A stretch of 50,054 nucleotides of DNA, taken from the NCBI GenBank assembly GCA_021780535.1, contig JAJXYN010000007.1, forward strand, positions 1-50,054, written 5' to 3'. This document shows, piece by piece, positions 1 through 9,371 of this stretch. Below the pieces are notes generated by a model. That model searched no databases, was not told the DNA's origin, and saw only the letters and a program-made list of their open reading frames with translations. Origin of the DNA: a bacterium (GTDB taxonomy: Bacteria > Patescibacteriota > Patescibacteriia > JAGPKW01). Both the position numbers and the translations under genes were made by a program. The number at the start of each line of letters is the position of its first letter. Position 1 is the first letter of the stretch.

Positions 1-180
1 CATCTATCGCCAATAGTAGCAAAAGAATAATTAAAAGAAACCAGAAAGAAGAAAGAAGAAAGAAAAAAACTAAAAACTAAAAATATTTTTAAATAAACTT
101 TTTTGCATAATTTAATATATGAGAATATTTATATATTAATTATATCATAAAAATAAAATAACCCCCTATACACAATTAAG

Positions 181-213
181 TATGAGGGGGTTAAAGCAGT
201 TTAGGGTTGCCAA
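181..213 (-). terminator. Rho-independent terminator of the 201..1052 gene
   Basis: Inverted repeat aaccccctatac...gtatgagggggtt just after the stop codon, followed on the minus strand by a T-rich stretch. Confidence 0.75.
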
Positions 214-1052
214 TCCCAGAGAAAATCCTCCGACACAAGAATAAGAAAATCGGAAGAAGTTCTGTAGAGTGAATAAAGTTCTTTTTTCTTATCCCCAAAA
301 ACGAAAGCAATACCAAGAGGATAAAGATAATCATTTTTGAATGCTTTCGTGATTTTTACCGTAATATCCATAGTCTTATCAAGTGTGGCAAGCAAAACCT
401 TCTCCAACTTCTGTCCACTGTGAGACTCCATGAAGTCACCAACGGGATGGCCGATCTTAAAGATCTTGACGATCATCTTCGGTGTTGCAACGAGGTTGTT
501 CTGGTTGTTCTGACCATATCGGATGATCGGAATACCAGTGTCGTAGCTTCCGGGATCTTGGTTATTGGCGACCTCAAAGTCAGCTTGGCTAACTTTACGA
601 AAAGGCTGATCAAATTCATCCTTGCTATCGGGTCTACCTTTGTTGTTTTCAAGGATTCTATTGTCATAGATAATCCCAATGTAAGTGCCCTTGGTGTCAT
701 ATTTTGCATCAAGAGAGAAAATAACTCCCTTCACGGTCGGAGCAGATTTGTCAAAGTTGAGTTTATAAAAATCCGAATCAAACTCAACCATTCCATTGCT
801 CTGACTGCTCAAGGAAAATTCTTCGACTCTCGAAGCAATCGGAGCCTTGATAACGGGAACGCCGTTATCATAGACATTCATCTCCGACATGTCCACGGGG
901 TAGAGCTGCCAGACGTTTTTGTTGAATTCAGCCTTATTTGGCCAGAATTTTTGAAGTTCCGTCTGCAAGTCTCTCGGCGTGCTCTGGGCAAAGATGGTCA
1001 AGGATGTGACCATCAACATCACTATGATCGTAAAAAGACGTCCAACCTTCAT
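201..1052 (-). CDS. Secreted hypothetical protein with signal peptide
   Basis: ORF starts at MKVGRLFTIIVMLMVTSLTIFAQ after a GGAGG ribosome-binding site; the ORF-track start at 1067 is a TTG inside the RBS region. Promoter TTGACA-N17-TATTTT upstream. Confidence 0.8.
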   Translation of the reverse strand: MKVGRLFTIIVMLMVTSLTIFAQSTPRDLQTELQKFWPNKAEFNKNVWQLYPVDMSEMNVYDNGVPVIKAPIASRVEEFSLSSQSNGMVEFDSDFYKLNFDKSAPTVKGVIFSLDAKYDTKGTYIGIIYDNRILENNKGRPDSKDEFDQPFRKVSQADFEVANNQDPGSYDTGIPIIRYGQNNQNNLVATPKMIVKIFKIGHPVGDFMESHSGQKLEKVLLATLDKTMDITVKITKAFKNDYLYPLGIAFVFGDKKKELYSLYRTSSDFLILVSEDFLWDWQP

Positions 1053-1084
1053 GTGTCTTACCTCCAAAAAGAATTTGTATTTTT

Positions 1085-1113
1085 AAAATACACTTTTTTA
1101 GTAGGAATGTCAA
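1085..1113 (-). promoter_or_regulatory. Sigma70-type promoter for the 201..1052 gene
   Basis: TTGACA (1113-1108), 17-nt spacer, TATTTT (1090-1085) on the minus strand. Confidence 0.7.
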
Positions 1114-1163: not shown

Positions 1164-1454
1164 TCAAAGATCCACCCCAGTTTGTTTCTTAGCAAGATCT
1201 ATAATATCTTGATCAGAAAGATCTGGGTTTTTCGCCCTAAGACTAAGAAGATCCTTAGCAGAAATAGACTTTTTTCCATTGAGTTGTTCAATTTCGTTTG
1301 ACAACTTAGCAATTTCATCTTGCAATGCTTGATTTGAATCTTGCAATGCTTGATTCGAGTCCTTAAAACCTTGTAAGGTTTTATCGAAAGAATCTTGAAC
1401 AGGTTTCATTCTTTTATCAACAATACCCATTACAAGATCATCAAGTTCACTCAT
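1164..1454 (-). CDS. Small coiled-coil hypothetical protein (MSELDDLVMGIVDKRMKP...)
   Basis: GGAGGA RBS 6 nt before the ATG at 1454. Contains a 21-bp tandem repeat encoding DSNQALQ twice. The longer ORF-track start is upstream of the RBS. Confidence 0.7.
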   Translation of the reverse strand: MSELDDLVMGIVDKRMKPVQDSFDKTLQGFKDSNQALQDSNQALQDEIAKLSNEIEQLNGKKSISAKDLLSLRAKNPDLSDQDIIDLAKKQTGVDL

Positions 1455-1533: not shown

Positions 1534-1562
1534 AAAATACACTTTTTGTGTTCAAATATCAA
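1534..1562 (-). promoter_or_regulatory. Sigma70-type promoter for the 1164..1454 gene
   Basis: TTGATA-N17-TATTTT on the minus strand, same aaaaagtgTATTTT context as the promoter at 1085-1113. Confidence 0.6.
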
Positions 1563-1569
1563 TGATAAC

Positions 1570-1600
1570 TTGCTTTTTTTTTAAAATGTGTTATTATAGT
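1570..1600 (+). promoter_or_regulatory. Putative promoter for the ncRNA at 1604-1722
   Basis: TTGCTT with TATTAT (16-nt spacer) or TATAGT (19-nt spacer) immediately before a GC-rich transcript-like segment. Confidence 0.5.
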
Positions 1601-1603
1601 ATT

Positions 1604-1722
1604 AAGGCTTGGTGGCGAAAAGCGGACCTCCTTGAAGCGCCTGATGTCCTCCTTTCCAAAGTTCAAACCACCAAGTCGGGTTGCGGTGTCGTACGTCGTA
1701 CACATCGCAACCCTCTTTTTTT
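1604..1722 (+). ncRNA. Putative small RNA with CCUCCUU (anti-SD-like) motifs and an intrinsic terminator
   Basis: GC-rich island with closing stem CTTGGTGG (1608-1615)/CCACCAAG (1668-1675), internal ACCTCCTT and TCCTCCTTTCC, then strong hairpin GGGTTGCG...CGCAACCC (1678-1713) followed by TCTTTTTTT. No ORF with an RBS. Confidence 0.6.
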
Positions 1723-3214
1723 ATTTTCTTGATTTAGGAGTAACCCAAAACCCCATATATTTACCTATCATAAGTCTCATATAAGCATCAATAGCTGGGA
1801 TAGATCCTAGTAATATAGTAATAAAAGGTAATAAAACCCATTCACCAAACAATAATATATATTTATAAAATTTAACTTTTTCTTTTGTTTTAGGTAATAA
1901 AAGAAAAGAAATAAAAGCATTTATAATCATACCAAGCATACCAATTCTCATAACCGTTTGTAATATAAAAGGAGCATTTCTAACTATTATAGATTGAGAT
2001 AAATTAGTAATATTAACAACAATCAAGGGAATAAAACCAAAGAAAAACATAACAATAGGAGCAGTAGCCCAAGTTATACCACCTTCCAATTGATTAAAAA
2101 TATAATAAAATTTAATATTAAAAGGTATTTTTTTATTTTTAAGCCACTCAGTCATAAGATAAGGAAAATTTTCCATACCATAAGCCCACCTTCTTTGTTG
2201 TTTGTATTGGTTTATAACGCTCTTAATAAAATTCTTTTCATCAACAACGTCAAGAGATACTGGTATATAAACAGGTAATACTTTATAATCTCCGTTATAA
2301 TAATTAACACATTGAAGACCAATCCTAGAATCTTCCGACACAACATCATTATTCCAAAAACCAACATCAACAAGAGCTTTAAAATTCATAGAATGAGATG
2401 AAAAAGTAAATAGTTTATCCTTTTTCATAAAATCAGAAAGCAACCAAAAAGTAGTACCACGAGCAACAAGTCTGTTTGTTGATGTGGCTTCCCAAAAATT
2501 ATTATTAAATATAGCAATAGGCTGATAACTAGTTCTGGTAGGATTATTAATAGTTAAGTGTAAATAAGACAAATGAGCAAAATATTGTTCATGAACAATA
2601 GTATCAATATCAAAATTAGAAACTATAATATTCTCATAAGGGATCTCAGGAAATTCAGCATCTAAAACCTTTTTAATATATTTACCAGCATAATTACAAT
2701 TAGATCCCTTACCTTGTACTTCGCCTTCTTGTAGATAATGAACCGTATAAATAAATTTTAAAAATTTACTTCCATATTTTTTTTCTATAATTTTTGCTTT
2801 TAAAATAAAAGCTTCTCCCTCTACACCTTCTCCAGCAAGAACAATAATCATCTTACTTAGATCATAAAAAGTATTAGACAATTTCAAAAGAGATGCTTCT
2901 ATAACCTCAATAGGTTCTCTCAGTGTAGGCAATAAAATCAAATGATAAACATTTTTCCAACTATCATTTTTTTCAGTTTTTAATTTAAAGAACCAATCTA
3001 TTGCAACTGTTTTTTTAAATTTATTCCAAGAAGCAACCAAATGTATTTCCATATAAATGACTTTGAAAAGCCACAATATATCATAAATTATAATAAAATA
3101 GATAACAAAAATAGGACTTATAAAAGTGAAAGCAAACAAAAACAAAAAAATAAATATAACAAGAGCGCCAGGTATAATTTCAAAAATTCTATATTTAAAA
3201 TCTCTTTCTATCAT
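1721..3214 (-). CDS. Family 2 (cellulose synthase-like) membrane glycosyltransferase
   Basis: TM segments at both ends; VSNFDIDTIVH, SEDSRIGLQC and QQRRW motifs typical of processive GT2 enzymes. Confidence 0.8.
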   Translation of the reverse strand: MIERDFKYRIFEIIPGALVIFIFLFLFAFTFISPIFVIYFIIIYDILWLFKVIYMEIHLVASWNKFKKTVAIDWFFKLKTEKNDSWKNVYHLILLPTLREPIEVIEASLLKLSNTFYDLSKMIIVLAGEGVEGEAFILKAKIIEKKYGSKFLKFIYTVHYLQEGEVQGKGSNCNYAGKYIKKVLDAEFPEIPYENIIVSNFDIDTIVHEQYFAHLSYLHLTINNPTRTSYQPIAIFNNNFWEATSTNRLVARGTTFWLLSDFMKKDKLFTFSSHSMNFKALVDVGFWNNDVVSEDSRIGLQCVNYYNGDYKVLPVYIPVSLDVVDEKNFIKSVINQYKQQRRWAYGMENFPYLMTEWLKNKKIPFNIKFYYIFNQLEGGITWATAPIVMFFFGFIPLIVVNITNLSQSIIVRNAPFILQTVMRIGMLGMIINAFISFLLLPKTKEKVKFYKYILLFGEWVLLPFITILLGSIPAIDAYMRLMIGKYMGFWVTPKSRK

Positions 3215-8325: not shown

Positions 8326-8664
8326 ATGAGCTACAAGATTGTAAGAAAAAAAGAAACTCCTAATATTTGGGAGTTCTTTGAAGATGGAAAGTTGCTTATT
8401 ACCATTGATGAAGAAAAAGAAACATCAACCGGTAAGGGTTTACTAACTATTCATAAGACATTTAATAGAAGACCTGAAGAGATTGATGTTGCTTTTGAAA
8501 TTGTTGCCAAAAAAGAAGTAAGGCGAAAAACAATAGAAGAAAGACAATTTCTTAGAAGTCAGTTTAAGGCAAAGGATATGCATTTTGTTGATAGTTTTAA
8601 AATTATTGATGCAATGCATATGTATTTTTGCATGAGAAAGCCAAATTGGTTTCCTAGGGAGTAA
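8326..8664 (+). CDS. Small hypothetical protein
   Basis: 112-aa ORF with consensus promoter, AGGAGG RBS and its own terminator; no family recognised. Confidence 0.8.
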   Translation: MSYKIVRKKETPNIWEFFEDGKLLITIDEEKETSTGKGLLTIHKTFNRRPEEIDVAFEIVAKKEVRRKTIEERQFLRSQFKAKDMHFVDSFKIIDAMHMYFCMRKPNWFPRE

Positions 8665-8683
8665 AACAATTGTTTTACTCCTA
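8659..8683. terminator. Bidirectional terminator between convergent genes
   Basis: Palindrome GGAGTAAAACAATTGTTTTACTCC followed by a T-rich stretch. Confidence 0.7.
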
Positions 8684-8690
8684 TTTTATT

Positions 8691-9371
8691 TTATGCAGAA
8701 AGTAAACCAACAGCCTTTTCATAAGAATTTATAATATCTACATATTGTCTTAAAACCTGTATTTTATAAGTTTTATCGATATCGCTATCTTTAGTTTCTT
8801 GATAATCTTTTTCTAGTTTTATAATAGAAGCTTCAAAAATAGATTTTTTCTCAGTTCTAAATCTTCCATCATCTAAATTCTTAAAAAATTCAACTCCATA
8901 AACATAAGAACTTAAAGATTTGAATCCAAAATCCATAATAATATTTATCTTTTGGTCTAAATCATCTATAGTATCCTCAATATTTGCAACAATATCAAGA
9001 TTATCAGATTTCTCAATTCTTTTTTGGAGTTTAGAAATTGTTTGATTAAATTTATCTACATAAGCATCTTTTAATAAAGAAGAACCCAATTCTATTATTC
9101 TAGAGGTAACTTCTTCGTTTATAACTTTTCTAAAATGTTCTGGGTTATGAATACCGGCAATTTCTTTTTGTCTATCAGATATTAAAGTAGTTAACTCAGC
9201 TATGTCTTTATTTTTATCAGTAGTTACTGATAAATCTTTGCTTTCTTCTAAAAAACTACCTATAGTAGAAAAATATGAATTTATTTCAATTTTAAGTTCT
9301 CTTGTGTCTCTATCCTCTTCATCTTGTTTTTCATATTTTGGATTATAAACATTTGAATTATCTAAAGACAT
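8691..9371 (-). CDS. Coiled-coil hypothetical protein
   Basis: 226-aa ORF, strongly helical and charged; no family recognised. Confidence 0.7.
   Translation of the reverse strand: MSLDNSNVYNPKYEKQDEEDRDTRELKIEINSYFSTIGSFLEESKDLSVTTDKNKDIAELTTLISDRQKEIAGIHNPEHFRKVINEEVTSRIIELGSSLLKDAYVDKFNQTISKLQKRIEKSDNLDIVANIEDTIDDLDQKINIIMDFGFKSLSSYVYGVEFFKNLDDGRFRTEKKSIFEASIIKLEKDYQETKDSDIDKTYKIQVLRQYVDIINSYEKAVGLLSA

Follow-up and report, generated by a model that had tools for sequence, protein, structure and literature searches.

A candidate orphan small RNA gene with two anti-Shine-Dalgarno-like motifs in a probable Parcubacterium

Described RNAs with anti-Shine-Dalgarno motifs

In rhizobia the small RNA NfeR1 (alpha-r14) silences ntrB through redundant anti-Shine-Dalgarno (anti-SD) motifs, three in number (PMC10746234). 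The candidate described here would resemble it as a trans-acting small RNA with multiple anti-SD motifs, which lie in unpaired regions there and in partly paired ones here, and with targets at start regions (PMC10746234). The two differ in architecture: alpha-r14/NfeR1 is built of three hairpins, each with an exact CCUCCUCCC, whereas the candidate has one clamp holding two CCUCCUU motifs, followed by a terminator hairpin. The exact loop motif is missing from the candidate, which has ACCUCCUU and UCCUCCUUUCC instead, and three motif-bearing hairpins, as in alpha-r14/NfeR1 and the cuckoo RNAs, were not found in it. No anti-SD small RNA family appeared in the Rfam match lists for the candidate, and no sequence homology to alpha-r14 was detected. 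Differing in motif and in architecture, and lacking an Rfam match, the candidate is not a member of the alpha-r14/NfeR1 family; it is analogous to that family or to the cuckoo families. An NfeR1-like action is the most likely one for it.

Cuckoo and CcsR-type RNAs of Proteobacteria are small stem-loop RNAs that are named beside anti-SD RNAs in passages of two reports (PMC10746234, PMC10253847). The candidate is likewise a small stem-loop RNA. Cuckoo and CcsR-type RNAs usually form tandem hairpin arrays carrying another motif, whereas the candidate is a single copy with a terminator of its own. C-rich small RNAs of Firmicutes, RsaE among them, pair with SD sequences through an unpaired C-rich motif of the UCCCC type. 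The candidate would also set a C-rich motif against the SD sequence, but its motif resembles the 16S tail and there is no homology between the two.

Anatomy and neighbourhood of the transcription unit

The locus lies on contig C12 of an 860-kb genome in 12 contigs, whose host is a probable Parcubacterium, and was analysed within a stretch of 50,054 nt (the window). The first-pass annotation had placed a single RNA feature at 1534-1722; the candidate RNA proper takes up about 1604-1722 of the plus strand, whereas 1534-1562, read on the minus strand, is the divergent promoter of gene 1164-1454 (Table 1). The plus-strand unit sits between this divergent gene, which has the GGAGG ribosome-binding site ascribed to it earlier, and the end of a convergent glycosyltransferase gene (1721-3214, minus strand), whose stop codon adjoins the RNA terminator. 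Promoter, terminator and closing stem (CTTGGTGG/CCACCAAG) were all found where that annotation had put them, the stem being in fact 10 bp long and closing a body of 72 nt. From the promoter position, transcription is predicted to start near 1604-1606, giving an RNA of about 110-119 nt with the U-run counted in; the run reads TCTTTTTTT in DNA. A consensus scan did not pick up the RNA promoter because its -35 element fits at only 3/6 positions.

Table 1. Positions of the candidate RNA, its elements and its neighbours in the window
Feature	Positions	Strand	Evidence or remark
Candidate small RNA	1604-1722	+	Placement of promoter and terminator; G+C content; fold z; no Rfam match
RNA promoter: -35-like TTGCTT (1570-1575), 16-nt spacer, extended -10 TGTTATTAT (1589-1597)	1570-1597	+	Read from sequence
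Closing stem, 5' arm GGCUUGGUGG	1606-1615	+	Paired in essentially the whole predicted ensemble
Anti-SD motif 1, ACCUCCUU; 3' half in apical loop	1626-1633	+	Sequence; opening cost 2.0-4.0 kcal/mol
Anti-SD motif 2, UCCUCCUUUCC	1647-1657	+	Sequence; opening cost 3.0-3.9 kcal/mol
Closing stem, 3' arm CCACCAAGUC	1668-1677	+	Predicted ensemble
Intrinsic terminator: singly bulged hairpin of 16 bp at 1678-1713, followed by UCUUUUUUU	1678-1722	+	Sequence and fold
Divergent promoter TTGATA-17-TATTTT of gene 1164-1454	1534-1562	-	About 8 bp from the -35 of the RNA
Divergent gene for a small coiled-coil-like product of 96 aa, with a GGAGG site; possible target	1164-1454	-	
Orphan gene whose product of 283 aa resembles a secreted protein, with a GGAGG site; possible target	201-1052	-	Paralog elsewhere in genome

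The G+C enrichment noted earlier was borne out, with 53% in the RNA against 27.4% in the window and 17% in the 46 nt just upstream. The predicted fold of 1606-1720 lay 5.4 standard deviations below dinucleotide shuffles (z = -5.4). This signal rests largely on the terminator because the 72-nt body alone gave only z = -1.4, folding, outside the closing stem, just slightly better than shuffled sequence. A coding reading was ruled out: no SD-preceded reading frame was present inside the RNA, and the frames that cross it reach into or past the terminator. A mobile repeat was likewise dismissed, the sequence occurring in one copy only in the genome. Other G+C-rich intergenic islands in the sampled contigs were mostly tRNAs or structured-RNA candidates, which was counted in favour of an RNA gene. 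With its own promoter and terminator and no coding role, 1604-1722 (+) is very probably a genuine stand-alone RNA gene; its transcription is presumed from these signals.

Comparison with known and related sequences returned no homolog. Rfam gave no match at the gathering score and only noise at E values up to 10, so that, as the first-pass annotation had expected, no known family was matched at gathering or permissive thresholds. The covariance search of relatives that it had proposed as a check returned no relative: BLAST and a single-sequence covariance model run on 57 related genomes recovered the window and otherwise chance-level matches. The host's own order was represented by only three genomes. 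Scattered matches only were returned by a scan of genome contigs for the double-motif pattern and by a scan of viral contigs for the motif pair plus stem; rescored with the covariance model, these reached at most 23 bits against 151 for the window and were judged to be chance. Phage and plasmid records contained no match to the RNA. Two genomes of the same family carry orthologs of the glycosyltransferase (65% and 54% identity), and in both a different gene follows closely after it with no RNA between. A search of 95 genomes of the class for relatives of gene 201-1052 gave nothing but a paralog, 66% identical, in the same genome. Since the RNA has no relatives, is missing from the loci of the same family and neighbours this orphan, the RNA and its two adjoining genes look like a lineage-specific block, to judge from sequence comparison.

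Elsewhere in the genome the promoter of the divergent gene recurs just twice, each time ahead of a homolog of gene 201-1052. A shared promoter (TTGAYA-17-TATTTT with AAAAGTGTATTTT) was considered as the mark of a regulon and rejected, since the genome holds no more than three clean copies of it, with 18 others at background level.

A duplicated block was also observed. It comprises genes 201-1052, 8326-8664 and 8691-9371 together with the beginning of a gene for a secreted-protein-like product at the left end of the window. Paralogs of this block (window 1-1113 and 8326-9371) seem to lie in a cluster close to one end of contig C2 (L046, G000:C2:131154-135011). There, just upstream of the paralog of gene 201-1052, lies an apparently broken frame resembling a REP-associated transposase (L046:926-1458, motif MPNHIHGI), with an inverted GTAGGGGCATGCC repeat inside it.

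Anti-Shine-Dalgarno motifs and possible mRNA partners

The two CCUCCUU motifs, spelled ACCTCCTT and TCCTCCTTTCC in the DNA of the window, are spaced 21 nt apart. CCTCCTT is not enriched overall in the 50-kb window, where both strands together hold three copies (3.3 expected), 2/3 of them inside the RNA. The unusual feature is the presence of two copies within one 72-nt RNA, not the window-wide count: among dinucleotide shuffles of the body, 0.02% had at least two copies and 0.5% matched the 16S tail at 12/16 positions or better. The likeness to the 16S 3' tail that had been proposed agrees with the 16S gene of the host genome, which ends GGATCACCTCCTTTCT and whose 3' end as RNA is GAUCACCUCCUUUCU. 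Motif 2 together with the GAU(G) ahead of it resembles this end; in context (GAUGUCCUCCUUUCC) it equals the tail at 12/15 positions from GAU onward. The motifs lie where the first-pass annotation had them, between the stem arms, and are unpaired only in part: a weak predicted inner helix takes up GGAC/GUCC and UUUC and holds parts of both, with an opening cost of about 2-4 kcal/mol. The body is complementary to GGAGG sites of the same genome.

Use of SD sequences was gauged on sampled stretches, namely the window and 105 kb from five other contigs (122 genes). A strong SD preceded 14/122 genes (about 11%) against 3/122 in an antisense control, and GGAGG-type sites were present at about 7 of the 50 window genes. 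The four genes named earlier as likely targets (201, 1164, 8326 and 9585) do bear GGAGG sites, and most genes do not; the SD genes include both neighbours of the RNA, 201-1052 and 1164-1454. Two sites elsewhere in the genome showed perfect complementarity of 9-10 nt to motif 2: L278:8961 (GGAAAGGAGG), over 10 nt, and L282:15902 (GAAAGGAGG), where the complementarity is long. A Pfam match above cut-off was obtained for 1/10 SD genes and 5/10 SD-less genes, a sample too small to lean on, and SD-less genes of like size also often had none. As a side observation, the 16S gene keeps CCUCC although most sampled genes lack an SD, and the SD genes are often orphans.

Target prediction, which had been proposed as a check, was made with a crude estimate of pairing minus opening energy. 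This estimate put 10 start regions at or below -6 kcal/mol against 3 internal control regions; about half of its top dozen were SD genes, and several were not. The excess at start regions is suggestive only, because any RNA bearing CCUCC favours SD sites.

Proposed action and competing explanations

We tentatively propose that the locus encodes an orphan trans-acting anti-SD small RNA, and put the probability of an anti-SD mechanism at about 0.45. The transcript would fold so that the 10-bp clamp displays a pyrimidine-rich region of about 50 nt with the two CCUCCUU motifs, and would end at its own terminator. One or both motifs would then base-pair in trans with mRNAs at their GGAGG sites, and the pairing would block ribosome binding and so repress the message. 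Because most genes of this genome have no GGAGG site, only a limited number of genes would be affected, for the most part orphans and with the neighbours 201-1052 and 1164-1454 among them. In an ordinary bacterium an RNA that can pair with GGAGG would encounter the majority of mRNAs; here it would encounter few, which makes the anti-SD idea more plausible than it appears at first sight. A stronger version, in which one small RNA copying the 16S tail acts as master switch of the SD-dependent minority of mostly orphan genes, is doubtful; if true, it would be a first regulator of such kind in Parcubacteria, working by a selective anti-SD pairing that is not on offer in an SD-rich genome.

In the literature searched, no relevant account of a small regulatory RNA from Patescibacteria or Saccharibacteria came up. 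If the proposal is true, this would be a first regulatory RNA of the Patescibacteria lineage. It would suggest that an SD-poor genome keeps a few SD sites in order to put those genes under one RNA regulator. With its two motifs, the RNA allows target mutants to be designed easily.

A genuine small RNA gene may also make no use of CCUCCUU, acting for example as a protein-binding RNA in which the motifs are a by-product of a pyrimidine-rich loop. This is a real possibility: the strong promoter-terminator anatomy does not depend on the motifs, which are moreover partly paired in the predicted fold. Against it stand the rarity of two CCTCCTT in 72 nt among the shuffles, which makes them improbable by composition, and a likeness to the local 16S tail that reaches beyond CCUCC. 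The arrangement of the locus could instead be what matters, the RNA product being of little importance, if transcription from 1604 disturbs the promoter of the divergent gene 1164-1454, or if the terminator blocks read-through of the glycosyltransferase gene. The two back-to-back promoters, and a terminator placed right at the convergent stop codon, would suit such a local regulator, but it would have no need of so elaborate a product, structured, rich in G+C and bearing 16S-like motifs, and we consider the explanation unlikely. Still less probable is an inert relic or newly arrived DNA with promoter-like and terminator-like sequence by chance; the want of relatives, and of the RNA behind the glycosyltransferase gene in both genomes of the same family, would fit it, but promoter, clamp and terminator are intact where a relic would be expected to have decayed.

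That the RNA is a divergent SRP (4.5S) RNA, or another housekeeping RNA overlooked by Rfam, is highly improbable. Its length of about 110 nt, G+C-richness and hairpin-like form would be compatible with an SRP RNA, and no other was found in the genome. It lacks, however, the GGAA loop and AGCAG core of domain IV, and the window has no match to RF00169 or RF01854; the latter model found no SRP RNA anywhere in the host genome. RF00169 detected SRP RNA in 0/57 genomes of the class against 12/14 controls, and the Ffh M domain (PF02978) was found in 0/19 genomes of the class against 14/14 controls. These negative results in the sampled genomes of the class agree with the published finding that Parcubacteria have neither ffh nor ffs (PMC4508563), and therefore no SRP RNA is expected here. 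The same agreement, taken with the size of the genome, is the ground for regarding the host as a probable Parcubacterium. With no core, no covariance match and no Ffh M domain in the sampled relatives, an SRP RNA is effectively refuted; the absence of an SRP domain recorded in the first-pass annotation is confirmed by the covariance models and by the missing Ffh partner.

Two further sequences were observed on the plus strand of another stretch of the genome. At L278:3668-3985 (G000:C2:3668-3985) an intergenic, G+C-rich sequence of about 320 nt is preceded by TTGACA, which resembles a promoter element, and ends like a terminator. It matches no Rfam family, its fold lies 4.5 standard deviations below that of shuffles, and it is possibly a large orphan structured RNA of the same genome. 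L278:6692-6850 is a tRNA gene (Rfam, 47.9 bits) that ARAGORN did not report; its anticodon arm is interrupted by about 90 extra nt, which probably form an intron.
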